Source of the DNA: Venturia oleaginea
Lineage: Eukaryota; Ascomycota; Dothideomycetes; Venturiales; Venturiaceae
DNA: 64,000 bases
Assembly (NCBI GenBank): GCA_013176395.1
Contig: JABMLP010000019.1
Coordinates: forward strand, 310,001-374,000
Direction: 5' to 3'
This document shows, in pieces, positions 23,383-48,872 of the stretch. Both the position numbers and the translations under genes were made by a program. The number at the start of each line of letters is the position of its first letter. Position 1 is the stretch's first letter. The notes below the pieces were generated by a model. The model was not told the origin of the DNA. It saw only the letters and a list, made by a program, of their open reading frames with translations, and made no database searches.

Positions 23383-24714
23383 CTAAAGGAGAGTCGCCGT
23401 TCGGGCAATGGAACCGAGGAGGCCACCCGAGCAAGTCTGCACATATCCATCAAGACTGAGATTCTTGAGAACGGTGCTGAAACTGGAAGCCATGGTACCG
23501 GAAGCACAGAGCGCAGCCGGAAGGAGATCGGTGACTTCGTTTGGGTACTCGATATGGAAGACGGGCTTTCCGGCGTTGATCATGAGGTTGAAGATATCAC
23601 ACTCCCTGAATTCGGCACACTGTTCGTTGACGGCGAATTGGACATAGTTGAGGACTGATGGGGCGATGGCGGGTCCGTTTTTGAGACCGGTGCTGATTCC
23701 GTGGGCGGCAGCGGTGGTGGCGAGAAATTTGACAAAGTCGATTGAGTCGGCTTTGGTCAGGCCGAGGCCGTTGGTGTTGCCGTAGCCGTCGATGTTGTCC
23801 TGAATTCTCATGTTAGTTTCTCGCAGGATTCGATTGAGATGGGGAAGTCAACGTACTGGATCAATGGCATCACAGCCTTTGGAAGCGGCCAGCTCGATAC
23901 GCTTTGCCATGATTGATCGAACATTGGCACTCTTGAGGTTGAGCCAGTACTCGCCTGGCCATCCAGCAAGGGCAGAACCTTTGTCACTGGCTACGAAGCT
24001 ACCAGAGTCTGGTCGATTTGGCTCGTAGGAACCAGCGGAGAAGTAGCAGATGGACTTCTTGCCCAATCGCTTCAAGGCATCGAAAGTCTCCTTAGAGTTG
24101 TCGAAGAGATCGATGTCGAAGACATCGACGTTAGGAGTTACGGAGGTTGAGAGGGAATTGACATTAAGTTTTCGGTTGAGGATGATTTGCCATGAGGCCT
24201 TGACTGGTGGTTGCCAGAGAGATCCGCTAGCTGTCGGAGCGGCGACGGCGCTCGAGGCTGCTTTCGAAGAAGGGACAGAAGAAGCGGCTGCCGCTGTTAT
24301 TTTGGAGGAAGAAGCTGCAGCTGTTGTTCTAGAGGAAGACGCTGCAGCGTTTAGGGTAGAAACGGATGAAGTGATGGCGGCGATAGTGGCAACAGGATCG
24401 ACGGCAGTTGTAGTAGCGTAGTCCCCGGAAACGACAGATGTAGCAGCGGCCGCGGCACTGGTAGTAGTAGGACGTTTATGACGGTAGTGACGACGGGCGA
24501 TGAGATGCATCGGCAGGGGTGCCTCGTGGTGGTTGAGGCACATGTTGACACCCGTACCCACGACGAGCATCGAACAGGCAATTGCTCCACCGACAACCAC
24601 CAATTTGGTCGTAGTGGAAGATCGTGCCCACCAGGAGCTCGCAGGCGGAGGGGATCTACATCCGAATATCTCTGATTTTTCGTCGGCCAGTGGCTGGTAG
24701 AGAGCGGAAGACAT
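23383..24714 (-). CDS. ega3: Endo-alpha-1,4-galactosaminidase, GH114 (Ega3-like), type II membrane protein
   Basis: Hydrolase expected to cut alpha-1,4-linked galactosamine chains of galactosaminogalactan at the cell surface. Exons 23857-24714 and 23383-23799 join (intron GTACGT..TTCAG, 57 nt) to 424 residues: a short cytosolic tail, a membrane anchor (about 37-58), a Ser/Thr/Ala-rich stalk (80-165) and the GH114 TIM-barrel domain (172-424). Signature segments are WQIILNRKL, DVFDIDLFDNS, KSICYFSAGSYE, AIDPDNIDGYGN and GISTGLKN. The Asp residues of DPDNID and the Glu of NEQCAEF are the likely catalytic acids by analogy with the family; I cannot verify them. It lies at the left end of the putative GAG cluster, separated from agd3 by a transposon. 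Known Aspergillus Ega3 is likewise membrane-anchored. Confidence 0.92.
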
Positions 24715-26698
24715 GGTGTGCAGGGAGTGCTGATTTCGATCGACGGATTCGGGATCAAAAGAGTGTAGGGTTAGAAACGAAAACAGTTTTTACAAAAACA
24801 CCTCGCGAGGACAGTTACAAAGTGAAGGTTGATCAACAACTAAAACCGAAAACACTGCGATTGGGCTCCCATTAAAAGCAGATTCCGATTCACCTCCAAC
24901 ACGCCTTTTCACATGTGGAGATTTACTCAAGGGGGGAGCATGATGGCATTCCCAGCTCCAGATTGCAGTCTTACAAACGCACAAGCAAGGCAGCCTCGCG
25001 CTATGCCGGCAAAGAAAGACGAAAACGCTGTCCAGACGCCAAGCTACAAAACCCAGAAGCAGATTTTGATCAAGGGTGCGCGCCACACGAGACGCCTCTT
25101 CATCATGAAATCCATCCTCAAATAGTATGCCCTCATTCGAGAGAGGCATGACCCAGCCTTACACCACCAAACGCCAAGCACAAGCCACACTACGAACACA
25201 GCTCCACCACGAAGAAAAAGGAAAGAGCCCATCGTGTTTTTTCTTTGCTTCTTCCCTTCGGGTAAGACCCCTGCACCCCAGAAGATAAATTACGGGACGG
25301 CGTCAGGTCGCTTCTCTGACAACTGTTGTTCCTTACCAATCACAGATCTGGGATGACACGACGGCGCGGATCAATCGATCGGAAACGGTCTAGCCTCGTT
25401 CCTGGAAATGTGCCAAGATCGGGATCGAGACAGGCACAGCGAGTCAGAGTCGGTGGTGGGAAACAGGAACAAGGCGAAGGCTGTGATTCATGTAAGCTCA
25501 TGATGCCATATCTGTTCGACCATTAGTTCACCACCGTTTACTGTCTTGTTCTAGAACCTAGTGGCAATTGACAATACGTTGGCGTTGTTGTCGCCAGTTG
25601 GTAAGATAATTGTTTGGATAATGGCGTTGCGTGTGGCACATGATCTTGCATGTAGCCATAGTGCCATATGTGGGGCCAGGCTGATGTGGCTATAGGTTAG
25701 GATAACCTATCATAGCACATCACCTCACTTCGTTTGTTGGCATTCACGCAATGTATATAGATACATAGGGTCTGCGCTCTCATGTGCAGACAACCAACTA
25801 TCAAACTCTATCATACCAACTTACAACAAGTACTTGTTACCCATCTAATATACCTGACAACCACCTTCCTATACACCTGATAGGATCCGTGGAGATACAC
25901 CAACAATAATACTAGCTGGAAGCTTTGAGTGACATTTCGGTCTGGCCGGGCTAACTAGTTCATGTCCAGGCTTTTGTGTGGTCGCTTCCGTGGCACAAAA
26001 TTCGACAATTTGTGCCCTCTCCGGCATGAACAATCCATCCAATCCATCACATCCACCAGCTTCGCCAAGCACCCTCCCTCCGCATCAAGGGAAAGCGAAA
26101 CCGCCTTCTGGCGAGCTGGACTGGACATTTCTAAATGCGGTAGCCTTCCCAATACGGATAACGCGCGGCATTGGCAGGGGCTGGAAGAAAAGCAGGAATT
26201 CGAGTTCGATGATGAGATAATGGCAATTCACCATCGGGATGGGAAGCGATGCATGCGAAGCGATGCATGCGAAGCGATTCATAGAGAGACGAACATGAAC
26301 GACAAATCCTCTGCGGACTCGCCGAGCTCACATCCCTTGATGAACTCTTCATCGGAACATCGAATTATCGATCGCCTACGCGCCGTGGAATAGGAATGTA
26401 AATCGGAGCCGACGAATTGATCGCTTCCTCGTCTTCCCTCCCCCCAAGAAAAAGGATTGTGTAACAATCAGCTTCGCCCTACGAGTATGGGAGGAACCTG
26501 TGTAACAATCCCCCCTCCCCTTGAAGATTCCGCATGGAGCATTCGTTCGTTTGACACGTAAAATCCCCATCCCCCCTAAAAGGTGCGTAACAACCAGCCG
26601 AGATTCCTTCATGACCCCTCGCCCTATAGGGATGAGAAGAACCTGTGTAACCAAATCCCCCCTTGATAATCTTCGCATTCCGTATGGGAGTCGTAAGC
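24715..26698. other. Gene-free interval between ega3 and the Harbinger element
   Basis: About 2 kb upstream of ega3 and left of the transposon. It contains the ega3 promoter and no gene I can support. A possible 251-bp solo LTR (25578-25828: starts GTTGG, has a TATATAG box near 25755, ends ACAACA, imperfect flanks AATAC/AGTAC) is only a weak suggestion. A 14-bp tandem GAAGCGATGCATGC occurs near 26246-26280. Confidence 0.45.
26457..26698. repeat. Imperfect tandem duplication of about 120 bp
   Basis: Two related units start near 26460 and 26586. Both contain GTAACAA.CAGC, then CGCCCTA, then GAACCTGTGTAAC followed by a C-run, then a TT-rich segment with CGCAT and GGAG. The second unit ends at the Harbinger target site. 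The duplication predates or is unrelated to the insertion; its origin is unknown. Confidence 0.55.
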
Positions 26699-26701
26699 TT
26701 A

Positions 26702-26730
26702 GGGCTTATTCGAAAATGATGGATTGAGCG
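26702..26730 (+). repeat. Left terminal inverted repeat of the Harbinger element
   Basis: 29 bp starting GGGCTTATTCG, preceded by the TTA target duplication. It pairs with 31056-31084 except at positions 4 and 7. Confidence 0.95.
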
Positions 26731-26995
26731 CAGATGGATTGATTTCAACCAATCCAACCAATCTAGAGGGACGTGTTCGATTTAGCTTGATTGAAATGAA
26801 TCAAGTAGCATAAAAAATCCTGATGGATTGGATTGATTGAAATGAGCGCGGCTATTCGATATTAGCCAATCAAATGTGTGTATTTCAACCAATCCAACCA
26901 AGGCCAAAATGACCATGATTCGATTGATTACGATTTTGCCAGCATACACCTCAAAAACCTACATTTTGACCGACAGACTCTCTCACAACGTTCAG

Positions 26996-28429
26996 ATGAA
27001 CAAGAAAGACCTTCGCAAGCAGATTAGCAATGAACTTGTACGGTATATTGCTGCCAAGAAGCTTGAACAGCTGCGCAGCGAGCGTGCGGCCGTCCGACGC
27101 GCCAAAAGAGAGGCCATTCGACGTCGCAATCAACGAGTGGTATTCTACGAGGACTGATACTACGCAACGAAAAAGATCGATAAGCTGTTACAAGGACATC
27201 CAGAGAGGTTTCGGCAAGAGACTCGTCTTACTATACAGCAATTTAAGCTACTGGCGACGTGGTTGAAGGACAATACAGCTCTCTGCAACTCCAGATATGT
27301 CAGCCTGAAAGCAAAGTTAGCAATCTTCCTTTATATATGCGGACAAGGAACCACGTATCGTAATACCGGCAACCATTGGGAGCTTAATATCGACCGAATA
27401 TCCGCCTTTTCCCACGAAGTTTTGACCGCCCTCGTCATCCTTGCCGACCATAATATAGTTATGTTCAAGGAGGAGGATGACCCAGCAGTGCCACCTCAAA
27501 TTCGCGACGAGGTTGGCAAGATGTTTCCCTTTTTCAGAGACTGTGTAGGAGCGATTGACGAGACTTTGGTGTACGTCTCGGTGAAGGGCGAGGATCGAAG
27601 ACGGGAGGGTCAAGAGGGCTCGTACAGGTGTCGCAAAGGCTTTCTTGCGACAAACACACTCGGCTGTGTAGATTTCGATATAAACTTCAAGTTGGTATTT
27701 CCGGGATGGGATGGTACAGCCCACGATGCGACAGTGTTCAATGACGCGAGGCGTCAAGGCATATTTGTGACTCCAAGAGGGAGGTTTTGGCTGGCCGACG
27801 CGGGCTATACGCAAGCAGATGGTTATGGAGGGCAAGTCCTGGCACCATATATGTCAGTAAGGTATCATCTTCAAGAGTGGAGGAAGGGCAAGCAGAGACC
27901 TCAGAATATGAAGGGGCTTTTCAACTTACGGCACGCCAAACTGCGCAATGTGGTGGAGAGAGTCTATGGTGTGTTCAAAAATCGATTCCGGATCTTCCAG
28001 CAAGCTCACAATGGCTTCTCGCTGAAGACTCAGAATAAGATAATCATTGCGCTCTCTGCTGTACACAATTAGATCAACGAAAACGGCGGCAAGCCAAAGG
28101 ATGAGTGGAAGAAGATGAAGAGCGCGAAAAAAGGAAGCAGAGCTTACCGACGATACGAAGCTATCATTAGACAGCAAGAGGAAGCCCGTGTCAATGCCGT
28201 ACCTGATCGAGGACCTGTATCGCTTTCTAAGAAGGAAGGAGCGCGATATATGTATGCCAAACGCGATAAAATTGCTTCCGATATGTGGATACAGTACCAA
28301 TCGTACTTGAGGGCGCGAGGAAACGACGGAGGAGAGTCTGAATTGGGTTCCAGCGGAGACGAGGGTGATGAGAGTAATGCCGGTAGTGATTCGAGCGATG
28401 AGAGTGGCTCAGAGGACGATTCTGAATGA
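26996..28429 (+). pseudogene. PIF/Harbinger transposase (DDE_Tnp_4), two in-frame stops
   Basis: One frame runs from ATG 26996 (MNKKDLRKQ) to TGA 28427-28429, broken only by TGA at 27155-27157 and TAG at 28070-28072. CGA-to-TGA and CAG-to-TAG transitions would explain both. The middle section (27158-28069) is the nuclease: ATWLKDN helix, CVGAIDETLV, AHDATVF and WLADAGYT supply the acidic residues, and RNVVERVYGVFKNRF supplies the Glu helix. The N-terminal segment is basic and probably helical. The C-terminus after the second stop ends in a Ser/Asp/Glu-rich tail (SDSSDESGSEDD). The protein would cut and paste the element together with the Myb-like partner. It is not functional as it stands. 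Confidence 0.92.
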
Positions 28430-29220
28430 GGTTATAGAGTTATAGAAGTTTTTACGCTGTAGGTGTTGTATTATCGAAAATGATAATGGGGGAGATATAA
28501 TTACGCGCGCTCGGCCTTGCAACCTGCCCTCGAGATCCGCGCATATACAACCACCCCAACGTATGATATTGATATATACGATATTTGAAGTTGTATAATA
28601 GCTCACGCTGAAGAGAATGCAATAAAAACTATGAAATTTGATCTTGGGGCGGTCGAGATGGAAAGCTCCAAAGTTGGTGTATATATAACGGCTAAGCGGA
28701 CCCTAGTTTTACCCCAGATTCCAGGGTCCGACCAGGAACAAGTGCGGCCTCCGGAATATATATGAGATTGTACGTGAGCGCCACCAACGAAATCGCTAGA
28801 TAATTGAATAATTTTGATCGCAATTGAAAGCTGTAGTATTTCGGTACATTTTGTTACGCCAGACTTACTATCCATAAGATAACGCTGTGGTAGAATCTGG
28901 GGTTGAAAAGAGTGTATATTTTTAGAGATACGGCTAGTGTTGTGACGTCAAACATCGTGGTAAACCTCGAGTTCTCCTACGCCGCCTATCAAACTCTGTT
29001 ATACGTAAACCCCCGCCCTCGATTTCTCAACACCACGATGGTCAAATTGTAAGCGGGTTACAGCATTAAAATCGTACGGATCGAGTCTATATTCATCCAT
29101 TTGTATATATATATATATATATATATAAATTGAGCGTACCAATGTCGAGAAAAATCGATTATTCAAATACTATATCCATTAATTAACTTCTACGCCCGGC
29201 AAAGTTCTTGGTACCCGGCT
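28430..29220. other. Spacer between the two convergent Harbinger genes
   Basis: Internal non-coding part of the transposon, AT-rich, with a TA dinucleotide microsatellite at about 29104-29128. No frame of interest. Confidence 0.55.
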
Positions 29221-30822
29221 TTACGCTTGACTCAACTCTTCGAAAAACTCAACTTCTTCATCATCACCACCACTAGACTCGTTATCCTCGTCCTCCTCTA
29301 CGTCCTCAACATCCTTAGTATCCTCCTCGAGATCGCTGTTATCATCTTCCTCTGCCACTCGCCATCGCGCCCTCTTTTTACCGACTCCCGTTTGATTCAT
29401 ACTACGTTTACGAGATACACGCTCTTCTTCACGGTCATTCCAGTGCTGATCAAGTATTATAGCCCCTCCGAACTCCTTCCTTACCCACCAAGATATCATA
29501 TGAATCGGTAGATTCAAGAAGTAGTCGGCCTTCTTCTCGTCAGCGAAAAAAACCTCGTACAAACACCCTATCGCCTCCGTATTTCCCTTGAAGATCTCCA
29601 GCTTCTCTACACGTTGCATTGCGAGCCCCATCTTACTCTCGTTCTGGGCAGTAAGTGCGACGGCAAGCCTATCTAAACTAGTATCCTCATATGAATTAAA
29701 TAAGGCATTCTTCCGCAGATCTGGAGTAGCTTTTGGTTACCGTTTTTTAGGCTTCGGCGGCCCTTCCTTTGCTAACTCCTTCACCTTTGCAGCATCTCGT
29801 CCGTCGGCCAGCTTGTTATCCAAGAGCTGCGATAGAAGGTCTACGTGGTTGACGCGTAGCTTCTTGAACCTACCGCACTTTGGATAATGGAAGTAATGGT
29901 CCCTCATAGTATCTTCTGCACTAACAAGTACACCAGCCTCGATGCCCGGGTAATCCCACTCTGCGCCGCTCATATTCTTCTCCCAACCCGACGTATGCGA
30001 TCGTACATTGCCTGAGCCGTAATGTGCCTGGTAATCGGGCCACCACCGCTTCCAGTCCCCCCATTTGTTGGCCATTGTAGCAGCATCCATATCTGGTATA
30101 GTCTCATCTCGCGGGACCCGGTCAACTGCCAATCGCGCTTCCAACCATACATCATCTTTGAATGCCGCGCCGGTTTGAAGCCCTCGGTGTTTTGCCTCTA
30201 CTAAGGTCTTCAGCATAGCGAACTCGCGCTCATAAATCCCAGGATACTTGGCCTTCCGAGGCTTCCTTTGTGTCCCACCAGGCGTTTGCGAGAGTGACCG
30301 ATCGCGGTTATCGTCATCTTCGGCAGGCATTTGAGATATCTCAAAGTCGCGATCGCGATTGATATTACCGCCCTGTTGGGGGGTCTGATGGGGTCGAGGC
30401 GCCGATGAGGGCCCTAAATTGCGTGCGACCGATGGACGAGGTGTAGGTGTTCTACTCCATTCAATTGACTGCATTGCGACTGACTGACCGCGTTGCTGAG
30501 CAGAGGATTCTCGTACAGGCGTATTATAATATGGCTTCGGCGAATCCTCTGCTGTAGGATCTGGATATTGTGTCTGCGGTACGGCGTCCTCGAGGGCGGG
30601 ATCCGTTAACCCATCGTTTCCGGCATCAATATCGCTCTTCGATTGAGTAGCTTTTTTACTACCACCTCTTCCACCCTTCCTACCACGTCCTCCGCGCCCA
30701 CCACGGGCTCCTCGGGTTGCAGCAGCCTTTGCATTGGTCTCTGCAATAATATCGTCATATGTTTTTGGTGTAGATCGTGCACGAGATGGCAGACGAGGTT
30801 CTGAGGCATCAGATATCGTCAG
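29221..30822 (-). pseudogene. Harbinger Myb/SANT-like DNA-binding protein, one in-frame stop
   Basis: Second Harbinger gene, read towards the transposase. The frame is open from 30822 down to the TGA at 29221, broken only by TAA at 29737-29739 (CAA-to-TAA would explain it). The upstream end has no in-frame ATG before 30474, although sense codons continue to 30822 and include an AT-hook-like Gly/Arg stretch (GARGGRGGRGRKGGRGG), so the original start or first exon is lost or unplaced. Residues after 30474 include a trihelix/Myb-like core (WGDWKRWWPDYQAHYGSG...SGWEKN). The C-terminus is very acidic. In this superfamily the partner carries the transposase into the nucleus and to the element ends. 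Confidence 0.82.
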
Positions 30823-31055
30823 TTAAGGATGTGTTGTAGTTGGAATGAGGTAGAGAGAAGGGACTTGGTAAGTTTTTGAGACGAAATATGGAGGTGCAGT
30901 AGCAAGCAGTTTCGGTCATATTAACTAGCGATCTAGGCCATTTCTGCTCACCGCCCTTATGCAATGTTTCTAATCGAAAATCCAATCAATCATTCTCGAA
31001 CCTCTTTACATTGGTTCGATGGATTGAACTTTAGCCGCCAAAACCCAACCAATCT

Positions 31056-31084
31056 CGCTCAATCCATCATTTTCGAACAACCCC
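31056..31084 (-). repeat. Right terminal inverted repeat of the Harbinger element
   Basis: Complement of the left end with two mismatches, followed by the second TTA. Confidence 0.95.
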
Positions 31085-31087
31085 TTA

Positions 31088-31795
31088 GCCTTCTTAAACG
31101 TGTGAAATCCCAATCCATCCATCCAGCCTCACAACCCTCATGAAACATAATCTCACCCCAATCAGAACAACACCCAGCCACCCCAAGGGAAATCCAAAAA
31201 CCCAACTTCCTCCGACTCCGCGACACGCGCGACGCGCCGGTATCTCTGCATTTCGCAAAATTGGCACTTGGAATTCAGGTGTGTTGCAGTGCACCCGCGC
31301 TTCTACAATCTGTATCTATGAATACGTACACACCTGAGACGACAGCAGTCCAGCGATCCATAGAGGCAAGCGATATCTCACTCGTACATTCAGGTGTGTT
31401 GGCTGCAGCTGCGCCCGCACTTATATGTATGGATACGTGTACGTGTACATCTGAAACAGAAGGCGCGTGGAAGAACATGTCTCACAAACAGATGCGGTGT
31501 CGCACCGTTGACAACAGCGTTTTCCCGATTTATACTAGGAGGGTATGGTATGGCTGTGGCATGAAAAGGTGTCGGGAGCGTCGGATGCGGAAGCCTTGGG
31601 AATATCTAGATTCATTATCCAGATCCATTATCGAATTTCACGTCGTGAGTGAATCTTTTTCTACTACGCGGAACCCATTTTTTTTCTTGCTTTCGCCGAA
31701 AATGCCATGCCATGCCATGCTATGCTATGCTTCTAATCCCGCCCGTTACTCCACGCTTCCACGAACTCATTTAACGTCACTATCCGAGCTAACAA
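31088..31795. other. Gene-free interval between the Harbinger element and agd3
   Basis: Contains two imperfect direct repeats of about 65 bp (about 31274-31337 and 31387-31452), both starting TTCAGGTGTGTTG, and an ATGCC/ATGCT pentamer array at 31701-31731. This is the 3' side of agd3; I see no gene. Confidence 0.5.
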
Positions 31796-34051
31796 TTAAA
31801 CAGTAATTGGAGTAGCCAAAGTGTATGTAACTGGAGAACCGCTCAAAGTAACCCAAATGGTCAATTGATCAGTACCAATCTGCTCAGAGGTACCTCCAGC
31901 AGCAGAAGAAACAGCGCCGGGGAAGGAAACTGGAACAGGGACACCACACGTGTTGCCATTGGCGGTAACAGTGACGCCGGCAAGTTTGCCAGCCTCGTAG
32001 TTGTAGCTAAGGTTAGGCTTGCAAGCATCAAGAGCCATACGGTTCTTGAATTGGACGGCAGCGTCATCATGCTTGATGGAGATGATAGGCCAAGTCGTGA
32101 GTCTGGTCAATTCCTGGAGGACTGTCTCGACCCAGGTTTGGAGAAGACCGAATTTGCCCGTCTGGCTGCCGACGGTGGTTGTGGGCATGTCGGCGGAGCG
32201 CATGTTGGCCTGGTGGAACATGAATGCGTCATGTCTGAGGGCAAGCAAATGGCGGACGTTTGTGGTTCTGGCATCGTTGAGCAGGACCTGGAAATCGTTT
32301 GTACCAGCAGAGGTGGCGACCCATTCAGCAACGGTGCAGGCTGGAGTGTCACAGTTGTAGTAGATGGTGGTGGCCTTGATAATAATGTTAGCAAGGGGTA
32401 TGATTTGATACAGTATTCGCGAGACTCACCCATCGAGGCATAACGACCAACCCAGCGTATCCATTGGCCTCGACAGTGGTAATGTATGGCCAGTGCTCGT
32501 TGACAGTGTTCTCGAGAACTGGTCGGGTGTTGTCACCGACGACGTTGAAGATACCATTGTCCATCCAAGCCTTGATCACATCTCCGTTGTGGAGACCGGT
32601 AATCGCTGGTGGGATAAGTCCATTTGGAGAGAAGTGAAGCGCGGCATCGATCGAAGTCTGGTTCATCCAAGCAGCGTTAAACACGATTTCCTTGTTGGCG
32701 TCGGCAAATGTTGCGTTGTTCAATGACATGTGGGTGAAGGTGTGAGACAAATGGGCGAAGGCGTCTCTGTTTGCTGGGACCATGAACCAAGAAAGGAGGG
32801 GATCTTGAATAGCACACTCCCTAGTCCAGACGTATGAAGTGGGGGTACTTGGCCAGATGTCAGCGCCAGTTCCAATGGCCTTCACGAACTCGAGGGGGGT
32901 GTCGATTTGTTCATCATATTCGATGGCCTCGTTTGGCGTGCAGATGTTAGCACCAGTACCGGTGACTGCTGATTCGATGTCACCGTTTCCGTTGTGGCCG
33001 ACTGTGATACTGTCAGTAAGGAGGAATTGAGAGTGATGATCGCGTAGGAAGACTCACTTTCAAGGAAGTACTGAGATCCAGCTGGCAGGCGTGCGTTGAG
33101 GTTGATTTGCCATGCAGCGTGAGCGTCCATGTCCGCTGGTGTAGCCCTGTAAGAGCTTCCATTGGGGAAGAACATCTCAGTGGTCAGGTGCATATCATCG
33201 ACCTGGGTGTTGAAATAGATACGACGACGACCAACGAAAAGTCCTCTGGTCATCCAGTGAATGAAAGCATGCTGGAGAAAGTTGGAGCTCAAAGCCCAAT
33301 CGGTAGCCCAAGACTGGAAGAAGACCATCTGCTCGCGCGTGGCGAACTCGTTGATAACAGCAGCAGTCGTGGCCGTGGTGAAGGTGTTTCCGGCATCCGG
33401 CGCGTACTGTGCAATTTCGAAAGTCGTTGCTGGGTCTGTGATGGTGGCAGGGTAATGCCACATGTTGGCGGTAGAAATACCAGCACCGAGCTTCAAGTTT
33501 GCGGTTGGGAATCCAGTGGAATTGCTGATGCTGATCATTTGTTCAACACCGGCGTTACAGCATCCAGCACCAGCGATGGCAGTTGTGGTGCCATAGTTTG
33601 GTCCTGGGTAGGCATCGAGACGGACCATACGAACGTTGAAATCAGCCTGGTAGGCATAGATGGATGCCCACTGAGCGGCTGTGAGTGCAGATCCCCATCC
33701 TGCGGCTCCAAGGTCGTAAGAGACTTCACCATGGATGATGATACCGCCATAGTTTCCGGAGGTAAGAGAGCTGTTCAACGTAGGGAGTGTGATTCCGGTG
33801 GAGGGAACAAGGATGAGTTCGTATGGAATACCATAACCGAGGAGTCCGTTCACGGTTGAAGCACCAGAGGCTGCATCTCTGGCGAACACCAGAATGGTGC
33901 TGCCCACTGAGAAGGAGCGAGCGGTATCGGCAAGGGTTGCATTAAGAGTAGTGGTAGTATTAGAGGCAGTAGTAGTATTGGAAAAGGATTGGGCAGATGC
34001 CGAGCTCAACAACGTTGAAGCTGCGGTGAGCAGGAAGGATGTCCCACGCAT
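31796..34051 (-). CDS. agd3: Secreted galactosaminogalactan deacetylase, CE18 (Agd3-like)
   Basis: Three exons (33058-34051, 32430-33001, 31796-32374) join in one frame to 714 residues. An N-terminal signal peptide (MRGTSFLLTAASTLLSSASA) is followed by an Asn/Thr-rich stretch and the large secreted domain long annotated as extracellular serine-rich protein, shown in Aspergillus to deacetylate GalNAc in GAG. NodB-like metal motifs are visible: NTQVDDMHL near residue 280, SHTFTHMSLNN near 418, and late ISIKHDD. Deacetylation makes the polymer cationic and adhesive. The start at 34051 gives the signal peptide; a TTG slightly upstream would bury it. Both introns (33002-33057, 32375-32429) have GT..AG ends. 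It stands between the inserted transposon and uge3, on the same strand as uge3 and ega3. Confidence 0.93.
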
Positions 34052-35590
34052 GACTGGAAGCCGAATCGGCAAGTGAGAGCAGAAACGAAAAAACGAGTGT
34101 ACGGAATCAGAGTTCCAGGAATTAAGTTTCGAAACGAATATGAGTCGGCGAGGTAAGTCAAGGACAAGAAGAGAAGTCCGACTTAGTATCGACTTATCAA
34201 AGGCTGAAGAGCAATCTTAAAGTTCAAAGCAACGGATCTGGACAAGATTCTCGCCAAACAAGTCCAAGATCCATTTCCAGTTTCCGCTACGCCCATCCTG
34301 AGTACCGCCTGTGTGGCGGCCATAATTACATCGTTTACCATATGGGGCTTGCCGCTTCTATTGAGCATTGTGACAAAAATAAGCATAGGGGAAACGGGAC
34401 ATGTCGAATGTGCCTGGATGGCAGGCCAGGAATGAAGTCGGATCAGCCGCTCGCTACCGCGATCTTGGTGAAGAGAGTTCGCGAGCACCAAAGGGTGGAG
34501 ACGGTTCCAGGAAATTGTCACCCGGCTGCTGGCAGCCTCTGCCGGCCAATGACCCGACTCTGCCAAAAGCAGAACAAGGTGCCCTTTTTTCTTCAGGGGC
34601 AGTGGATTGCTAACCCCCTCACAAAGCTACTTCTGGAATGTTCCTCACCGTCTTGACATGGTGAACCTGACGTCGAACTCAAATTCCTGTTGTAAACGAG
34701 GAGCAGACGGCGTCCCCCGAATCATCCGAGGGATAACGAAGCACCTGGGCGGCGTCGCTGAATATCTGTTATTGAAGGCAGGGCGCATGCGAAAAAAGAT
34801 GGCATTTGGCTTGGACATTCCACTTCTACGAGCCTACAGGGCGAGGCGATGGAGGCTGAGTCCCTGAGCGGCACAAGGTCGTGGGAAGAATACCGTCTGT
34901 ACATGACAAATAGTAATGAGAATTGTCAGGATACTCGAGGCTTGACATGGGAGAAAGGGGTGAGTGGGTTGAGAAGTGTGGAGTAGTAGCGGGCCATTCG
35001 TTCATAGAAAGTTTTAGTGGCCAGGCGCTCGTCCCACCCCTTGGCCCTGGCCACTCGGGGTGGCTAAAACAGGGTGGGCGCCCATGAAAAGAAAGCAGGG
35101 AGGCGTTAAGCTCTACCACGTAGTAAAGCCTCCTGTTGCCGAATCGAAAGGTTCTACTTGAGCTGCTTTGATACGTGGAGAAATATTAAGTCGTGCATAC
35201 AGCAGACCAATTAGCGACAGTAGGCCGGGAATCTCACGATAACTTCAGAGACGACTGAATTGATATTGAAGGATAAGAATATTCGAAGAAAGCGGTTAGT
35301 GATTTGCCAGGAGCTACGTACATATTTTGCTTCTTAAGCTTTGAGATATTCCTCGGTAAGCAAAGGTGCGCAACCGAAACAACCAAGTGAAACAGGTAGA
35401 TCTAATAAAAGCAAAATAGTCAAAACAGTCAAAAGCTTGATCGCTTTGATGTATCCATCTAATAAGACAGTGATCAATCCAGATATTACAACACTCGAAC
35501 AACCGATTTAGTTTTCTAAAGCGTGACCAATCAAGGTCTTTGTTGTGAGAAACAGCAGCCATAAATGAAAATGAAAGAAATGGTGTATCA
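34052..35590. other. Intergenic region, agd3 promoter and uge3 3' side
   Basis: About 1.5 kb without a recognisable gene. The open frames are short, overlap each other and resemble no family I know. Confidence 0.4.
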
Positions 35591-36958: not shown

Positions 36959-37683
36959 AGCGACTGAAAGAGGTGAGATGATGTGATTGAACTTTGAGAA
37001 TGAAGCTCGAACTTAATCTGAGACTGGACCTTTATCAATCTCTGCAATGCAAGTCGAATCCAGAGTGCCCGCTTTGAGCCATCGTACAGGATCGGAATCT
37101 CGCGAACATGGGCTAGACCATCGACTCCTGAAGCCCCAACTCAGGTTCCTGGCAATTCTTTTCGTGGCTGAAAATGATCTTGTTACACTCGCCACTGTAT
37201 TCTCAGCCTTCCATCTTCCGTTACCAAATTTTCGCAAGCGGCATGCCGAGCTTGGACTGTGCCGTTCCTGGTTATGGTCCAAGCGTATTTGCGGTACTTG
37301 GAGCGAGCACATCAAGCTCAAATTTAACCTTGATGAATGGAGAACAAGATTCCGCCATTGTCTCCGGCCATAACGTAAGAAGAAGTGACGCTTAACAATG
37401 GATTGCTTGGAATGTTCGGCTGGAATAGCCTCCCTCCTTGACCTGGGGCGTGCCAATAGCCTGGAGAGAGGAGGCCGAATGCATGGAAGTCGGAAGATTC
37501 TGTGCCTCACTATTGGCCATGTTTGTGAACAAGAGGCGACCCTACAATAGGACTTCAGCTGAGGTGAATACCGACGGGTAATTGCTCTGTGGTACGGAAT
37601 AAGGTGAAGAAGTCATGTCAAAGGCTACTCGTCTCGCTAAGCGGTGGTAATACACACCAGGAGGTAGTTGGCTACTAGACCCA

Positions 37684-37719
37684 GTGAGCGGGTGAGCGGG
37701 TGAGCGGGTGAGCGGGTGA
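37684..37719. repeat. GTGAGCGG microsatellite
   Basis: About four and a half head-to-tail copies of an 8-bp unit in the uge3-gtb3 intergenic region. Confidence 0.8.
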
Positions 37720-38181
37720 ACGTGGGCCGATCGCCGTTGGGAAGGTTGGTGGAGCGGAATCATCTCCATTCAGAGTCAAGCACGGCCATCCCGGGTCTCA
37801 TGCCAAGCATGCCAAGACAGAGGGTTCTTTTCGCATCCACACAATGCCATCCTCGTTTCACGACATCAGAGCAGCGTGCCATCGAACCATCGAACCTCCT
37901 CACCAGCGCACAGCCTGCACTCACCAGCCCGCCGGTTCCGAACCTCATGCTGTCCCCACTGTTTGGCCTGACTGGACCAGCGCTACCCGCTGTGTCCGCC
38001 TCCCTTTGCTGCTCCTGCGAGTCCTGCCCATGGTCACGCAGGCATCGTCTCCAGATATAGCACCATGACATCCCTTCAGCTTCCTGCTTCCCCACACCAC
38101 AGGCAAGGCATCCAATGCCGGGATCAGGGACCAGCCATGCCGGACAGTTCCTCCAATTGATTTCTAGAGCCTCCCTGCTGG

Positions 38182-38276
38182 CACTGCGTCGATATTGCTA
38201 CTGCACTGCGTCGATATTGCTACTGCACTGCGTCGATATTGCTGCTGCACTGCGTCGTTATTCCTGCTGCACAGCG
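38182..38276. repeat. 22-bp minisatellite
   Basis: Units start at 38182, 38204, 38226, 38248 and 38270 with exact 22-bp spacing. Consensus CACTGCGTCGATATTGCT, then a variable ACTG/GCTG. The last copies are more diverged. Confidence 0.9.
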
Positions 38277-39238
38277 TGCTGGCCGTGTGTACGTTTCCTA
38301 GAATGTACGTAGCATGTGTGATAACTGTCGTATTACAGCCTTGTCGATGAGTGGTTCGCATTCGTCCTTCCTGGATTGCCCCATGACGGAGTCCTCCAAA
38401 GGTGAGGTTACATTTCGAAATGCAGACCTACGATTTGACATCCATTTCCAAAAACTTCTGGCAATGTCTTGAATGCAGATTGCCACGAAGTTAACAATAT
38501 CGACCCTGCGTTGAACATGATACAATCAGATAGAGGGATAGGTTCCTTTTAAAGTATTATAGTGGTAAGCTCAAAATGTTCTAACACGACAGCTCGAGGA
38601 TCTACGAGTACCGGAGATTAATTACGGTCTTTAGCGGTCTTGATTATCACTTTGAATTCTGCTACCCCTGTACAAGGTACTCAGCCTCCCCATGGTGGAA
38701 CAGATCCGCAAATAGCTCAAAGAAAATAATGTCTGGCAAATAGCTTATGTAAGTGGTCTGTTGTTCTCTGGCGCATATGCAGCAGCGCTCGCACGGGCAT
38801 TTACAACTCAGCATTCTCAAACGAATGGATTTTCCTTCACTACCACTTCGTTTAAGGTGGATCCACCGTGGCGCACGTACAAAGGCAACTTTAGAAACAG
38901 CAGCGGAATCTTTTCTTCCCCCCGCGTCAGCACATCGACGTCTTGGCCTCCCATTCTTCCGATCTCATTCCGGGTTGTAACCCGCCCTGTGGCGTTGCAG
39001 CCTGTGTAATCATCGTCTGACCCTCTTAACAACCTGGACGTGCGATGGCGTGCGGGTTGCAGCGACACGTTCTCTTGGTTCTGTTGTCTTCGATACGAGA
39101 TCTGCTTGCATGTTGACGTCGCATCTCCCCTCGTTCATTCTCTAACTAGACAAACATTGTTCTTACCAGGCTAATTCATGTTCTCGCAAACTCTATCGCC
39201 CTAGGGTGTCCTTCTGTCGTTGAATTTTTATTTTCATT

Positions 39239-42200
39239 ATGTCCTTTCCTCCTACTCAGTTCGCTTCGGGCGATTGGGCGTCCGAAGTCTGCAATGGCAG
39301 CCAGTACCTAGTCTACTGCGACAGTGTTCTACCTACGTCTGAGCGTGTGGAGCATTGGTATCAGTGGTTGAACATTTCGTTGGCAGCGGCTACGATACTC
39401 TTACCTGTTTTATGGTGGATATCGAAAGGTTTGCGAACCTCTTGGCAGCAATGGAGGTTACGAAAACCAAGGGCGGTGCCTGTGGAGGTATATGGCGAGG
39501 GACGCCTCGTTCGACGTTCGTTCACTGACACCAATAGCAGGAAAAACACACAGATCCATTCGCCGACGAGATGGACCAGTCAGCTGTCCCGATGACCATC
39601 CTGGACCCTACGAGGATTTTGACCGATAATACCATGGCTGCGCCATACATCAAAGTCTCCCCAGATAGTAGTACCGAAAACTTCGACTATCGACCACCCA
39701 CCATGGATTTCAGTCAATACCCGAGCCCTTCGCCTAATAATTCGGTTTATATGAACTCCAATCTGGGCACATCCAATTCCAGCCTAAACTCGCAAACGGC
39801 GATGGCTCCCACAAGAACGAGCATGGTGGATCCAAACTCTTCAGCCGACAGCGTCATGTCTAGTCGGGTGCCTTCAGCCATGAGCGTGAGGGATTCACGG
39901 CCGGTATCACTCAGCCTTCGGCCCGGCAATGGCAATGACAGGGCCCGTCGCATGAGTTTTCGAGAATTGGTCGACGAAGAGCGGCAATCATCCTATGGGG
40001 CATCCGGTTTCGCAAGTCCAGCGCTGAGTTTAGTATCAGCGCGATCATCCTTCGAGTCCGATGGACCCGTCTTGCCAGGGTTCCTGCGAGCGGAAAATCG
40101 CTTGAGTATGGAATCGATAAACCTGCGACCTGAAACAGATGCGGACATTGCATTCAATCCATTACAAAATTTCGACCTGCGAATAACGCCGCTATTCACG
40201 AAGACCGGGAAAAAAGAGTCGCGTTTCTCGACCATGTCGAAGAAGGGAGCTTCCGCCAAGACTGTCCTGGCTCTCGTAGATTTGGAGGATCTGGGACCCG
40301 ACGCATTTCTGGGAGATCTGTTGGAGACGGTCCACGAATTGGACATGTTAAGAATGGAGAAAATGGCCTCTGGATTTGTGGTGAAGATACATGACGACGT
40401 CTTCCCGACTCAAACTGTGAGTCTATTGAAAGCCATGACGAAGCAGGGCGTGCAGGTCATGCTCATGTGCGACACGGATGCCGAGATCCTTCGATCCATC
40501 GACTTCGACATGCTCTTCGGGGTCATTCTCGAGAACTCGACAATACTGCCAAACGGCGAGCGCCGCGATTTCTTCCGCTCAGACAGATTGCGTGGTGTTA
40601 TGTCTCGTTGCGCAGAAATACGAGTTGAGCGCCCGACATTTTTCCTTGGCTTTCACGACCTTTGGGAGACGCGACCTACGGCTGCGGTGGTGCGACGAGC
40701 ATTCAAGCTGGCTGAATTCTTTGGTGCAACTCTGACGCACGGACCCTTCGGCCAACAGCGCCATACGAAGTTCCCGATTAGTATGAGCGGGTTCGACTAT
40801 CTGAAGGGTAAACAAATTGTGGACGTAGGTTTTCTTCACTCTTAGTTGCGAGAAATTTACTGACCCTCAGCTCTTATAGTTGCAAAAAGCGTGGGTCAAC
40901 GAGGCCAGCCAGGTGCAGCTCAACGAGGATCCCAGTCTCTCGAACGTGTTTCCCCTCTCCACGGATAAGCTGAAACGGTATGTACCCTTGGTTGAACGAC
41001 TCCTAGAACCAATGGGACTTCCCGATGATCTTGAGGCCAAGTTCGAGGAATCTGTGATAACAACGCTACCTCCTGCTGTTCTGTCTCGTGCCCCAGGACG
41101 ACGAAACTTCTGGAACCTTTCAAGCGATGGAGAAATCTTGTCACCTCTTGGATGCTATCCACTTAACAGACCCATTTCCAGAACCCAATACGACGCCATT
41201 CTCGAGAGTCAAGAGCATCTCAAGAGACTCAATATGCTCCATCAATTGGACGAGGTTGAAGTCTTGAAGCTTACAGATCGCTTGCGCACCATTCTTGGTA
41301 GCACCAAGCACTGCCATCTTGTAGATTCGTTAGTTCTTGGACTTACATTCGGACACATCACCGTGTACACAGCGTTGGACTCCGCTTTTAGTGTCCCTGG
41401 GGATGCCCATGCATGGGGTGTTTCGAACAGTGGTACCTCATCTCACCTGGACATCTTTACATCCCAGAAGACCACTAGCCTTGCTTCGACTGTTCTACAT
41501 GTTTTCCTTGCGCAACATGGGATTCCCCGCGAACAGCGCTTCCAGGAGGAGATGCTTTTGGAGGGGCCTGCTGTGGATCTCCCACTTTCTCTCAGAGCCG
41601 AGCTCCACGATTCAACAAACTCCGAACTATTGTTTGTAATGGAGCAAATCAAGGTTTCAGCCCTTGATCACCCATTCGCGATTGCAATCCAAAGAATTTG
41701 CGTCGAGAGGCTTTTAAACGACGCTTCACGAGAGGAATGGACTGAGATTCACTCCAAACGGTTCCTCGAAGGTTCCATCTCAATCCGTAAGCTTCTGCAA
41801 CTTCGTCTGGAAGAATTCGCTCGCAGAGGAGCCCGGAAACTGCCTTGTTTGGACAATCTGGAGCAATTGTACCAGTCTGTGGATTTCCTAATTTCAGACT
41901 CTCTCTTCTGGGCAGAACGTGAGAAATTGGAATCTCTCTCCGCTGCGCTTGTGGATGTATATAAGCCATCAGAAGACCCTTCCACAAGGATTGTCGACGT
42001 AAGGGCCGATCTGTTTGCCTTGATATTTTTTTGTTCGCTGAGGAAGCATGCTTTTGACAACGTTTTCCTCGAAAGTACCGACAGATGCCCGTTTTTCCTT
42101 ACCCAGCCTGACCAGGCTGGTGTCTTTTCGGAGCTCTGGGTTCTCGGATCTCAATGCGATATCTATTTTGGGATACTTCCCAGAGCGATAGGAAAGATCA

Positions 42201-45200
42201 TTTATGACCGATATCGAGCACATCTTGCACTCCACCCTCCGCCAGCCGATGCTTTCGACAAAAAGAACGTTTTCACGGCGTACTCTTTTACCCACAGCGC
42301 GGAGAACACTTCAACTATCGTCAAACCTGAAGAAAAACTGAGTCTGGCCACGCGCCTTCAGCAAAAAATGGTTTCCGTCTCAGAGACAGTGATGGAATTT
42401 GGAGCACTCTCGATCTTCTGCATGCCTGCAATAGCCGACGTCGTTTTATTGACATGGCTAGGAAGAGGGTTTTTTCTGACCGCATTCATGGACGTGGAAG
42501 ACCGTATTATGGCAGCGTATGCCCTTCTTGCCTCATTACTGTTGACCGCTGGCAATACCGGCTGGACCGGTTCAGTTGGAGGGCACTATCTCTACAATTT
42601 TGCTTTCCACAACATGAACTTCTTCCTTGTCAGCCGACTTGCCGGGGGGTTCGTGCTGTCACTACTTGTATCAATTGCTGGCTTTTTGGCCTTTTCAGTC
42701 CAAATGTCTCCACGAATAGCTGCGGTTTTCGTTGCCTATGTGATTGTGCTTTGCACATATCTCAATATTCTTGGGTGGGTCCTACTGAACATGTTGTCTG
42801 GTCGGCGAAAACTAATAAAAGAACAGAATTCTCGCCACAATGCACCGCTCCGGTGCGCCTCTAACCTCCGGGCGTACTGTACTTTGGAGAACGCTTCCGT
42901 TCCTGTTCATCTCTCCAACCGTGTCCATTTTCATTCCTCACCACGATTTGCCCATTTATTTATCGGTTCTGTACGGTTTTCTACTCCTACTTCTGATACA
43001 GTATCGGAATTTATGTCACGAATGGAACAACTGGACGAACAAGGTCCCCACCATCAAAACAGACGAAGTCATTGCATGGTACCAGACGATGCAGGCCGAT
43101 AGCGAGTACGAAACGGAGGAACTCAAGGGTGATGCGCTCTCAAAAGCCGCCACAGCTGCCTTCCAAGATGCAGTCGAAGCATTCAACTCAAAAAAGCACG
43201 ACCCTCTTGTCTCCAGAGCGGCAAAAGGGCTGCCATTCGCACTATGGCTGCTCGAGAAAGAGTCTCCCAATCCGGACAAGAATGCCAAAAAGAAGGCTAA
43301 GAAGGATGTAGATCGTTGGTCCAAGATCTGGCTGTCCAAAGTCGAGCAAGCACTTAAAAGCACTCAGCAGCTAGCTCAAGGCCTCAAAGAACACAGTGTT
43401 TTTGTGCTCTACCGATATGGCCAATATGATGTGAGTACTTGCCTTGAGACAAGTCCGCTTCGATACTGACCTTCATTCCAGATGGCGCAGAGTTTCGGTC
43501 TGTTTCTTATCGCACTCATGGATCACTGGGTCAATGTTGCAATGAGCGCACATCCTGTGACCCTAGATCCGTTCGAAAAAGACCGATCGCGATACAGTCA
43601 GGGTCTCTGCGTGTTGTTCTTTCTCATGTCCGCCATTGCTTTAGACGCCACCCTGCAGCCTTACTGGGAAGCAAACTCTAAGCTTTCAAGCGAGAAACTT
43701 GTCGACGCAGATCACGCTAGAATTGTTGCACGACAATCACAGCAACAACGAAGACGTCGGTGGGTTGACGCTTTGATCGACCTGATGAGCAAGATAGCCT
43801 GTGTCTTCGGTGTGACCACCGGTCTCGTCTGCTTGCTCACTAAGGATGCGGGCCAAATCATCATGTATTATGGATTTGTGGGCGGATATCTGGGCGTTCT
43901 TATTTTCCAGTTCAACCGGTTAGTCTTTAAGGTCATACTCGAAGAGAGACTCCTGCTAAATCTTTATAGATGCTTCACTACCAACGCAAGAGCTCACGTC
44001 ATGTCCGTCTTCGTTGGAGCCTTTGTTGGCTTTGCCACTGGTTGCGCTCTCCATGCTATCCCGGCAACTTCATCCTTTTACTACACAGATGTGTTGGCTA
44101 TGGTCATAGCATCGCTGGCCGCAACCGCTTTAACCACAGTCTGGGTTTTCGTTGACCCTGAACTCGCATCTCTTACAGTGCCTACAATAGCAACCGGTCG
44201 GCGAGGAAGCGGTGAAGAGACATTCACAGATCGGGCGATCTCCTTGCAATTTAAAATTGGCTCTGATGTTGCCGAACAGGCGCACAGGAATATTTTTGCG
44301 ACAGCAGCTATGCCTTCTGTGAGATTTTCAGATGCATCGACTGTGGCACAACGAATCACGCAGCTCCTAGACGCTGTTCCCATCAAGGCAGATCACATCT
44401 CCCCAATATCAGCATGGCCAAATCGCGTTCTTGAAACTTCTTCGAGTATGTGGAGAGAAGGAGCTGTTTCCGTTCTTCTGTCCACTCGACAGGAGTTTGA
44501 GGAGCACGATCTCGAAGATGTTTGGTCGTTTAGTGAATACCGAAGTGGTCAGCTGATCATCTCTGTGGGATTCCTTGACGCTTCGGAGCTCAATCTTTAT
44601 CAGAATCAACTACACGATAAGCTGGCATATCTGTGAGTCAATTTGCAAGCATTAACTAACTATGCTAATTACTTCAGTCTCACCGAAACAATATTGTACC
44701 ACTCGGCAACCACGATCTCCGGACTGAGTTCACGCCATGCACTAAAGGCGGAGAGTTTGTTGCGCACAGCTTCATCATTGGCTGGACGCATTGATCTTCA
44801 ACTCGCCACGGAAGATGAAGCAACCCTGATGAGGCTCCTCTCGAAGACCAACGCCGACCTCTTGAAACCGCTCTGTTTGAACTTGGACGTGAACACCGAA
44901 TGGAACAAGGTACCTGCCGGCGTCCGCAAAACCATTATTTCTCGTGTCTCTGGCAATCCTACTCCCTGGACCTCATCCATGGAGCAATGGATGAATACTG
45001 TCTCGAAAGACATTGAGCTTGAAGACTTCCACGTTGCGTTGTGCCTTCGTATTTACCAGCTTACAAAAGAGAGGTTGAAGACCTTGGCCATCGGCTCCGA
45101 CTCCAATAGCACTTCCTATGGAGCCAAGAAAATGCCTGCGGAGCTTCAATGGGAGCGCATCTCATCACCAGGGTCTGGTTTCGCGATCTTTTCCAGGTTC

Positions 45201-48200
45201 TTACTAGGAATCGTCAGCACATTCGCTACCATCTTCAAATGGGTGTCGATTTTGTCAGGCGCTGCTTCTGAGGTGGAGCGGGAACTTTGGTACGTGTTAC
45301 AAGGATTACCTCTGCATCAGATTGTCCTTGTTCCACTGTTGATCTTCTGGCGTATCTGTTGGTTGATGAAGAATACTTGGATCACCCTTCTTTTGATTTA
45401 CCGCAGACCTTCCCTTAAGAGAATCGTTCGCCTAGCAATGAGTGGGTCGTCAAGAGACCTTGTTCGCAACTCAATCGTCGTGGAGCTCCCAGAGAAGACA
45501 ATTACTGGTTTCGCTTCACACAACATTGATGGAAGAATTACTCTGGACATCTTCAATGGAGCTATGTCAGAACAACCAAAGACTTTGGAGAGCTCCATCG
45601 CACAATCCGTTTACGACGAGAATTGTAGACTGAGGTTTCGTGTGGACCAGAGGGAAGCCCAGAAGGTTCACACGACCTACTACTACGACTCGGCTTCCGG
45701 TCGCACCCCCGCTTATAAAGAGGTTGTCCAGAATGGTCGGACTTTGCAGTACCGTTACGATAAGTACGGGCGCATCGCATCTGGCAATGGTCATCTCGGT
45801 CTCGGCGACGCCATCGGGTTCACCTACCACTATCGCAAGGCTCCAAAACACAACTGCGACATCCTTCGGGCTGTTTTCCTGACTTCCAAAAAACAATCGA
45901 TGACTGTCTACTGGTCGGTTGTGGATGACAACAGCTCCGAGCAAGATGACATGGCAGTGCCATCTGAAAGAGTTCTCAGGGCGATAAAGATTGTTGGTGG
46001 AAAGAAGTTTGTCACAAAATGGACATATGAACACAAACGTGATCCCAGGACTGCCACCGAAGAAATTAGGGAAGACGGCGGAAGGATTCCAATCGCCGAG
46101 GCGCCTGTGCTGTTCGCGGGTGAGGCCGATCTATTCAAAAAGCCCTCCAATCTGTCTTTTGACTGCGACGATTTGCTTCGACATCATAGCAGAGGCCATT
46201 TGGAGCGCATGTTCGCTGCCATATCCCCAGATCAATCTTCTATGGCCAGAATTTGGTCTCGAGCTGCATCTCTTCTGCCTTTTGGTCTCTCGTACTGGAG
46301 TCGACATACCACTCACGAGCGCATCTCAACATGGAGACTGCGAGCCGAGCTCTGGACACTGTGGCTCAAGACGAACGATCTTGATGCAGTGACTGCTTGC
46401 TGGATTGACGAGCTGATCTTGAGACAAGAACCTCTGCTTTCAAGATACTGGCGTTTAAGAAATCTCGGCTTTCTCTTTGACGCGAAGCAGGCTTTAGATG
46501 ACGACATCGAGCTGATCGTCCCCGCGATTGAGATGCCTTTTGAGGTCTCCCAGACTTGTGTTCTTCCTATCAAACCTTGTGACCTTTACGCAATGGGACT
46601 GGCTAAAGATGCGACGCAAATTACCAACCGACCACAAGATTGTTACAAAGACACGAAGGACCGAATCTCTATTATATTCAATGATGTCGGTTGCTGGCCT
46701 GATGCCCCGGGGGGTGTGTCCAATTGCCGTCGTGATCTTGTCAACGGACACTCCACCATTCGAAACCATGTGCTCGCAGAGTCGGCTCACGACTACGGTA
46801 TCTCTCGCTTCCAACTTGAGAGAAACGTGCAATCCTTGAAAGCCATCCCTCTCTGGGGTCTCGATTTCAAGACTGCTCAGCACGGCATTATTGATAATCT
46901 TCTTCAATCGCAGGTCGACGAGAAGATCGATGCCACCTACGCCAAACAGGACATCGTCCAGATCTTCATTCCAGCATTGTGGATGTTCGTCAAAGGCTCT
47001 CGCACCAAGCATGCCACTCGGAAGCAGCTTCTCGAATTTAGCAACGCTATGCTCACAATGGCTGCCTACTTCGAGAAGAAAGATTACAACAAAACCTGGC
47101 GATCAAAAGAAGTTGAGACGGCTTGGGTCCAGGCCTGGCTTCACCCATACCGTGACTCTAATATACTTGACCCCTCTGAGCTTTTCGAGCTTGAGAGGCC
47201 CAGCATGGAAGATTTCCGCGAATCCCTCGCGCTCTACATGGCTTACTTCATGATATACTCCGTCAAGATTCCTGATGAATGTCCCAGAGTTTTTCAGTCA
47301 ACCCATCATGGTATTAGTTCTTTGTTCGGGATGGTGCTCAAGCACAAGAAGGGTGCAACTTTCGGATTGTGGGACCACGCTATTCTTTGGCGCGAGTGCT
47401 GTTTGAATATCTCAACAGCACAGTGCCTTCTTCCCATCTCGGTCCAAGCACAACTTCTTGCTGGTATTGGTCTGGCTGCCAGACTTGCTTATCTCCATGT
47501 CGATATCCTTCTCCCCTGCACGTCTGTGTTCAATCCGTAAGTTTCCACGCTCTTCCAAGCCTTGAACTACAAAGCTAATACTCTATGTAGCGTCTGGGAA
47601 GCAGAAATCGGCACAGACGGCGGCCTCGTCGGCCCAAAGGCTCTCTTCAACCGCAAGATTGATCCCATTGCCAATGGTATCTCCAACATGGCGAATTTTG
47701 AACCTACGACTGAGCCACTCGCCGAGCTACCCACCGTGGTGATGTTATCTAATATTCAGACAATTAAAGATGTCAAGGCTGCTGTTTTGGCTGCGGACCA
47801 CATCATCAACGACTTTGGATTCGAGGACTACCGCTTGCACATTTACGGCGCGCAGGATCGAGAACGTAAGTATCTCTCAAAAGAATTTCCAAATTCAAAT
47901 CATTATCATGGAATGTGAACGACTAACACATCGTAATTAGCCTCCTACACAATGGAGACCCTTCAAATCATTGCTGATCGAAACCTTACTGGTAAAGTCG
48001 TTCTAGCCGGTTTCGGTAATCCTAAGAAAGTTCTCAAAGACGCTTGGCTCTTCGTAAATTCCTCTCTTTCCGAAGGTCTTCCCCTCGCCATTGGAGAAGC
48101 AGCGTTAACAGGTGTTCCTATCGTTGCAACGGAAGTTGGTGGAACTTCCCTAGTCCTCACAGATCCCGATGACTCTTCGTGCAAGTACGGCGAGGTTGTC

Positions 48201-48872
48201 CCACCTAACGACCCCTTAGCTCTCGCCCGAGCTCAGATCAATGTCCTTTCCATGTCAGGACAATGGGCACAATACTCCGATGACAAAGATGACCCGCCCT
48301 ACTTACCAATCGACTTCACACCTGAGGACGTTAAGAGAATCATGAAGAGAATGTACGATAAATCTGCAGATCGACGGACACTAGGTCTCAAATGTCGAGA
48401 AGTGGTGCTGCGCAGTTTCCACGGAAATCGATACCTCCGCGAACACGAACAAATGTACTGGATCCAATGGCGCCTCGCACACATGCGCACTGACGAAACT
48501 CTCACCGCCGAAATGAACGCGAATGTTCGCTTCGGCATCCCCGCCGAGATCCGTTGCGAGACCCACGAAGACGAAGATGATGAAACGGCCGCGTTGGTGG
48601 AGGAGTACGGCAATGTTAGCAAGCAGATGCTTAAGAAATATAGGTGGCAAGATTTCGAGAAGAAAAAGGTCGTCAAGAAGAAGAACAAGAAGAAGATTGA
48701 GGAGAATGCGAGAGCGAAGAAGGGAAACTCGCTGGAAGCTTTCAGGACTGGTGGCCAAAAAAGACTTGGTTCCAAGGTCAACCTCGGTATTATGAGTCCT
48801 CAATTGACCAGAAGCCCGAGGACGAGGGATGTGGAACATGCTTGGGATCTGTGGGATACTGGAAGGAGATGA
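39239..48872 (+). CDS. gtb3: Giant membrane-spanning GT4 glycosyltransferase (Gtb3-like GAG synthase)
   Basis: Eight exons: 39239-39487, 39541-40824, 40880-42774, 42827-43430, 43482-44632, 44678-47536, 47591-47865, 47941-48872. They sum to 9249 nt, an uninterrupted frame of 3082 residues. Order: one TM near residue 44-62; a Ser/Pro-rich disordered part (100-330); an alpha/beta domain of unknown type (about 330-510); a mostly helical part; two groups of roughly six membrane spans (about 1010-1210 and 1350-1570); one or two further spans (about 1895-1970); then a C-terminal GT4 domain. In it, DVGCWPDAPGGVSNC (near 2396) is the N-lobe and EGLPLAIGEAALTG (near 2815) is the EX7E nucleotide-sugar motif of the C-lobe. 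The tail is acidic, then Lys-rich. Gtb3 is held to polymerise GAG from UDP-Gal and UDP-GalNAc at the plasma membrane. Splicing between 42774 and 42827 is needed to keep the frame. Confidence 0.9.

Follow-up and report, generated by a model that had tools for sequence, protein, structure and literature searches.

A probable galactosaminogalactan-type gene cluster in Venturia oleaginea with a synthase of a different class from that of Aspergillus

Galactosaminogalactan (GAG) is of a polymer type that is sticky and positively charged, and its gene cluster in Aspergillus fumigatus comprises gtb3, agd3, ega3, sph3 and uge3. Published work is cited here from excerpts of the papers. A survey of more than 250 genomes reported the cluster from 28 species, a hydrolase or a spherulin being sufficient for acceptance (PMC4817252). 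Mutants of MrSph, MrUge and MrGtb in Metarhizium robertsii lost lectin-stained GAG, and MrGtb is 28% identical to Gtb3 (PMC8224951); a synthase knockout in Verticillium dahliae also lost GAG (PMC13245733). In Neurospora crassa, adherence was lost in the synthase and deacetylase mutants and kept in the GH135 mutant, and the synthase gene adjoins the epimerase gene by gene number (PMC11356417). As described in the excerpts, these three fungi have one cluster each. Here we describe four clustered genes in a 64,000-nucleotide stretch of Venturia oleaginea, a relative of the apple-scab fungus (C11:310001-374000 of a 46-Mb, 61-contig assembly; hereafter the window). They probably form a functional GAG-type cluster of a synthase class here called beta, and the genome has two more clusters with a gtb gene.

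The four genes were found intact at the positions given by an earlier, sequence-only reading of the window:

23383..24714, minus strand: ega3-like GH114 endo-alpha-1,4-galactosaminidase, 2 exons (24714-23857, 23799-23383), 424 amino acids (aa), N-terminal membrane anchor
31796..34051, minus strand: agd3-like CE18 deacetylase with CBM87, 3 exons (34051-33058, 33001-32430, 32374-31796), 714 aa
35591..36958, minus strand: uge3-like UDP-sugar 4-epimerase, 2 exons (36958-36143, 36088-35591), 437 aa
39239..48872, plus strand: gtb membrane GT4 synthase, class beta, 8 exons (39239-39487, 39541-40824, 40880-42774, 42827-43430, 43482-44632, 44678-47536, 47591-47865, 47941-48872), 3082 aa

In models rebuilt from the bases, each of the 11 introns is GT..AG and 45-75 bases long, the four frames contain no internal stop, and the synthase length of 3082 residues was reproduced exactly. 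The enzyme types named by that reading were likewise borne out. The anchored GH114 hydrolase has a Pfam Glyco_hydro_114 domain (1.3e-79) and, in a simple hydropathy scan, a single hydrophobic stretch at residues 34-62. The CE18-like deacetylase has the CBM87-CE18-C-terminal architecture (Agd3_CE, 1.9e-179, with CBM87_Agd3 and Agd3_C), and the GalE-type epimerase matches Pfam Epimerase (1.5e-38). For Gtb3 a part of 1272 residues was submitted, which gave GT4 group-1 domains and DUF3492, and the same hydropathy scan gave 14 hydrophobic stretches in this protein, some of them overlapping. The nearest solved structures to the window Ega3 and Agd3 are those of the A. fumigatus proteins (7.5e-74 and 5.7e-253, respectively).

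Activity of Agd3 requires D377, D378, H510, H514, R613, M666 and H668 (PMC7229062), and all seven of these metal- and catalytic-site residues (CM1-CM4) are retained, by alignment, in all four Agd3 copies of the genome, that of the window included. Catalysis by Ega3 uses D189 and E247 (PMC12054363), and equivalents of both are present in the aligned window Ega3, so that in the catalytic residues checked the two window enzymes resemble those of the A. fumigatus cluster. The EX7E motif of GT4 enzymes is retained in all three synthases of the genome (residues 2817-2825 of the window Gtb3). The window Uge3 has a cysteine at what is presumably the site of a small residue in UDP-GlcNAc-accepting epimerases. 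GAG clusters were recognized in PMC4817252 by a glycosyltransferase, an epimerase, a deacetylase and either a hydrolase or a spherulin-like protein, a set that the window locus contains. Because the expected domains and catalytic-site residues are present, the cluster was classed as GAG-type.

In a cluster of this type, Uge3 would provide UDP-galactose (UDP-Gal) and UDP-N-acetylgalactosamine (UDP-GalNAc), from which the membrane GT4 synthase Gtb would polymerize and extrude an alpha-1,4 Gal/GalNAc chain. The secreted Agd3 would then deacetylate the chain, making it cationic and adhesive, and the anchored Ega3 would trim stretches rich in galactosamine. Sph3, the hydrolase of the acetylated chain, might be supplied in trans by a cluster on contig C2 (below) or another Spherulin4 locus, or might be unneeded. 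The activity of the window cluster, its product and any division of labour among the clusters are what we infer from the sequences.

Whole-genome scans, the counts of which are lower bounds, gave at least three Gtb loci in the 46 Mb (7 matches), at least four Agd3 loci (20 matches; a scan with PF25115 gave 15 matches at the same 4 loci) and at least ten GH114 loci (18 matches with PF03537). At least five Spherulin4 loci were found (10 matches), with C1, C19, C29 and C2 among them. Close Uge3 loci number at least three, namely the window, C45 (62%) and C2 (56%), matched over nearly the full length, with two weaker loci (8 matches overall). A weak 90-residue Agd3 match at C45:95297-95530, one of the 20, did not recur in the PF25115 scan. 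Three further groupings of these genes were modelled:

C2:1667500-1687054, about 20 kb: five-gene cluster, uge3 (minus), sph3 (plus), ega3 (minus), agd3 (minus), gtb3 (plus)
C45:1304987-1322384: agd3-uge3-gtb3 cluster, agd3 (minus), uge3 (minus), gtb3 (plus)
C59:893709-898404: agd3-ega3 pair, agd3 (plus), ega3 (plus)

The models of these copies are stop-free. Several lack their N-termini (Gtb3 of C2, 2509 aa; Gtb3 of C45, 2913 aa; Agd3 of C2 and of C59), the Ega3 models of C2 and C59 cover the domain only, and Spherulin4 models were made at four of the five loci. The C2 Sph3 matches solved Sph3 proteins (2e-65). The C45 cluster repeats the order and strands of agd3, uge3 and gtb3 seen in the window, and its synthase is 47.7% identical to the window Gtb3; it differs in that the GH114 scan gave no match on C45 and in that its synthase groups with Tothia.

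The synthases fall into two classes, for which the labels alpha and beta were coined in this analysis. Searches with the window Gtb3 and the C2 Gtb3 returned 446 and 493 matches, respectively, and the best 120 of each were used. All 120 from the C2 search score highest to C2, and those from the window search are divided between the window copy (49) and C45 (71). A tree of 51 chosen rows (48 of the 240 listed matches and the three copies of this genome) was built by a quick method, with support from the Shimodaira-Hasegawa-like approximate likelihood-ratio test (SH-aLRT) only; it separates the classes at 100% support, and the branch between them is roughly 2 changes per column long. Class beta includes Metarhizium, Verticillium, Neurospora, Fusarium, Arthrobotrys, Trichosporon and Aureobasidium, and class alpha includes Aspergillus, Penicillium, Alternaria, Cadophora and others. 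The window Gtb3 falls in class beta, apart from the Aspergillus class. Among the named matches listed, V. inaequalis, V. effusa, Tothia fuscella and Elasticomyces elasticus appear for both classes. The class-beta synthases of Metarhizium, Verticillium, Neurospora and Trichosporon are 40-44% identical to that of the window (five rows, aligned length), and in N. crassa gtb adjoins uge as it does in the window, whereas in C2 gtb3 adjoins agd3.

Over the aligned length, the synthases of the genome are 79.6-90.8% identical to those of V. inaequalis, V. effusa or V. nashicola. The window Gtb3 is 89.9% identical to its V. inaequalis match and 85.2% to that of V. effusa; the C45 synthase is less conserved (81.6% to V. 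inaequalis). The closest named protein to the window Agd3 is also from V. inaequalis (92%), and the locus tags EG328_006784 (Agd3) and EG328_006786 (Gtb3) suggest that the two genes are linked there as well. Among the matches listed for V. effusa (P0014, P0036, P0122, P0242), a C11-type synthase was seen without a C11-type Agd3, and a C45-type Agd3 without a C45-type synthase; annotation gaps may account for this.

The sequence-only reading had taken the window genes for four of the five genes of the Aspergillus cluster. Their membership of the four enzyme families stands, on domains and catalytic sites; the standing of the locus as counterpart of the Aspergillus cluster does not. The best match lies in other copies for two genes, because A. 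fumigatus Gtb3 (P0294) shares 28.0% identity with the window synthase and 29.3% with that of C45 against 49.7% with that of C2, and because the solved A. fumigatus Ega3 gives 252 bits with the window Ega3 against 290 with C2 and 288 with C59 (three of the ten GH114 loci scored). A reciprocal best-match check proposed with that reading accordingly points away from the window for gtb3 and ega3. The agd3 scores do favour the window copy, which reaches 844 bits with A. fumigatus Agd3 (the other three 809, 778 and 775; identities C11 56.1%, C45 53.6%, C59 54.1%, C2 53.2%), though the Agd3 tree groups C2 with A. fumigatus (100/99) and leaves the window copy outside. The approximately unbiased (AU) test leaves a position of the window Agd3 within the A. 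fumigatus and C2 group unrejected (p 0.24). All five Aspergillus genes are present in the C2 cluster, and they are arranged as the A. fumigatus locus numbers imply, given the place that we assume there for agd3. The numbers for uge3, sph3, ega3 and gtb3 are given in PMC4817252. In the window the synthase is of the other class, sph3 is lacking and the gene order is different. On these comparisons the five-gene counterpart of the Aspergillus cluster is the one on C2, not that of the window. An Aspergillus-type cluster minus sph3 was rejected as a description of the locus on the synthase class of the window and the existence of the C2 cluster, and despite the Agd3 scores and the AU result we regard it as highly improbable that the window holds the true A. 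fumigatus counterpart with only sph3 lost.

The four genes had also been described as lying side by side with no other cellular gene between them. They do occupy one locus, and ega3 and agd3 are separated by a 7.1-kb gap that contains a 4.4-kb DDE transposon:

26702..31084, no strand assigned: presumed PIF/Harbinger-like DNA transposon, 4.4 kb, ends read by eye
27158-28072, plus strand: open reading frame (ORF) with the Pfam domain DDE_Tnp_4
29221-30822, minus strand: transposon ORFs without a Pfam family

Terminal inverted repeats (26697-26745 and 31041-31089) flank the DDE_Tnp_4 element, and a TTA target duplication (26699-26701 and 31085-31087) was read from the bases by eye; the element was assigned to the PIF/Harbinger-like class by its domain and target site, which we take to be typical. 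Transposases 95-96% identical to its own occur at four other loci in the genome. As far as Pfam reaches, the lack of another cellular gene holds, the transposase being the sole domain match among 9 intervening ORFs submitted.

Several points weigh against a functional cluster of class beta in the window. The transposon parts ega3 from agd3, uge3 and gtb3. The cluster is without sph3: a hidden copy was ruled out, since the whole-genome Spherulin4 scan gave no match on C11, C45 or C59 and tblastn gave none in the window. The window and C45 clusters differ in this from the clusters of M. robertsii, V. dahliae and N. crassa, which include a Sph/GH135 gene as described in the excerpts, and M. robertsii without MrSph loses its lectin-stained GAG (PMC8224951). 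This objection is countered by N. crassa, in which a strain lacking GH135 remained adherent (PMC11356417). The evidence on composition from the same fungus is indirect: the soluble polysaccharides of the wild type and the synthase mutant are both without GalNAc, and that of the deacetylase mutant contains it (PMC11356417). With two other clusters in the genome, that of the window could be silent or redundant. Membership of MrGtb, VdGtb and NCU05132 in class beta is what we infer from their relatives and the 28% figure, rather than from their own sequences. Finally, the C11 synthase lineage changed 3 of the 190 positions conserved in both classes, more than most other beta clades (0-1 in five of them, 6 in the nematode-trapping clade).

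Taken together, the absence of sph3, the transposon within the cluster and the redundancy would fit a decaying or silent spare, with the polymer made by the C2 cluster, and the stem branch of the C11 synthase is long (0.66 and 0.63 in two trees). However, all four frames are intact, Gtb3 and Agd3 remain 89.9% and 92% identical to their V. inaequalis matches, and most conserved synthase positions are retained in the C11 lineage. Over the stretch of about 1000 residues compared, loss of conserved synthase residues in this lineage was unsupported: among 246 beta-conserved positions it changed 4, and six other beta clades changed 0-7. We therefore consider a decaying spare improbable and prefer a functional GAG-type cluster. 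Transfer of the beta clusters from a Sordariomycete lineage, or their sharing with one, followed by duplication into C11 and C45, is compatible with a functional cluster and was weighed on separate trees. In a beta tree of 32 rows (excluding 17 rows of class alpha and two that were long and unnamed), both Venturia beta synthases join the Sordariomycetes and Trichosporon/Vanrija (100/100), and eight other Dothideomycete rows lie elsewhere. A constraint that unites 15 Dothideomycete rows is rejected, at a cost of 103 log units (p-AU 0.0004). Horizontal transfer of the GAG cluster into Trichosporon has been proposed (PMC4817252). Yet the constrained group was named after inspection of the tree, omits Elasticomyces and consists of rows of our choosing, and C11 and C45 are sisters at just 83/80. 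Nor does the Agd3 tree (44 rows: 39 of the 120 listed matches, four of this genome and one of A. fumigatus) have the same grouping; its deep forks are poorly resolved, and AU tests gave p 0.075 for Venturiales with Sordariomycetes and p 0.039 for Venturiales as one clade. Ancient duplication with loss would account for the same pattern, and transfer from, or sharing with, a Sordariomycete lineage is regarded as possible but less likely than not.

The GAG literature, as excerpted, describes one cluster and one synthase per fungus; here there are two classes about 28-29% identical and three clusters, two of which are without Sph3, a protein that A. fumigatus and M. robertsii reportedly need. Among the titles and abstract openings listed from the open-licence PMC literature, none mentioned two synthase classes, or several clusters, within a single genome. 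It is conceivable, if doubtful, that two anciently diverged synthase classes (alpha in C2; beta in C11 and C45) make distinct galactosamine polymers for different stages, the beta clusters sharing Sph3 or working without it. Whether the products of the classes differ, and whether Sph3 is shared or dispensable, become testable questions in this fungus. In a cell-wall study of V. inaequalis, three GH114 genes rose in mid to late infection, and no word starting with 'galactosam' occurs in the main text (PMC10269774), so that a GAG-type polymer could have escaped notice in scab fungi.

Some further features were recorded. In an annotated class-beta synthase of Aureobasidium melanogenum (P0192), residues 2590-2770 form a Spherulin4-like stretch 33.5% identical to the C2 Sph3, either a true fusion or a gene model merged with a downstream sph gene. 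In the window, an ORF for a FAD-dependent oxidoreductase (PF01266) lies to the left of the cluster at 21088-22272, a transposase ORF with DDE_1 and HTH_Tnp_Tc5 lies at 8073-9710, and retroelement ORFs with zinc knuckle, reverse transcriptase, RNase H, Tf2-1 SH3 and chromodomain matches occupy 2529-7351.

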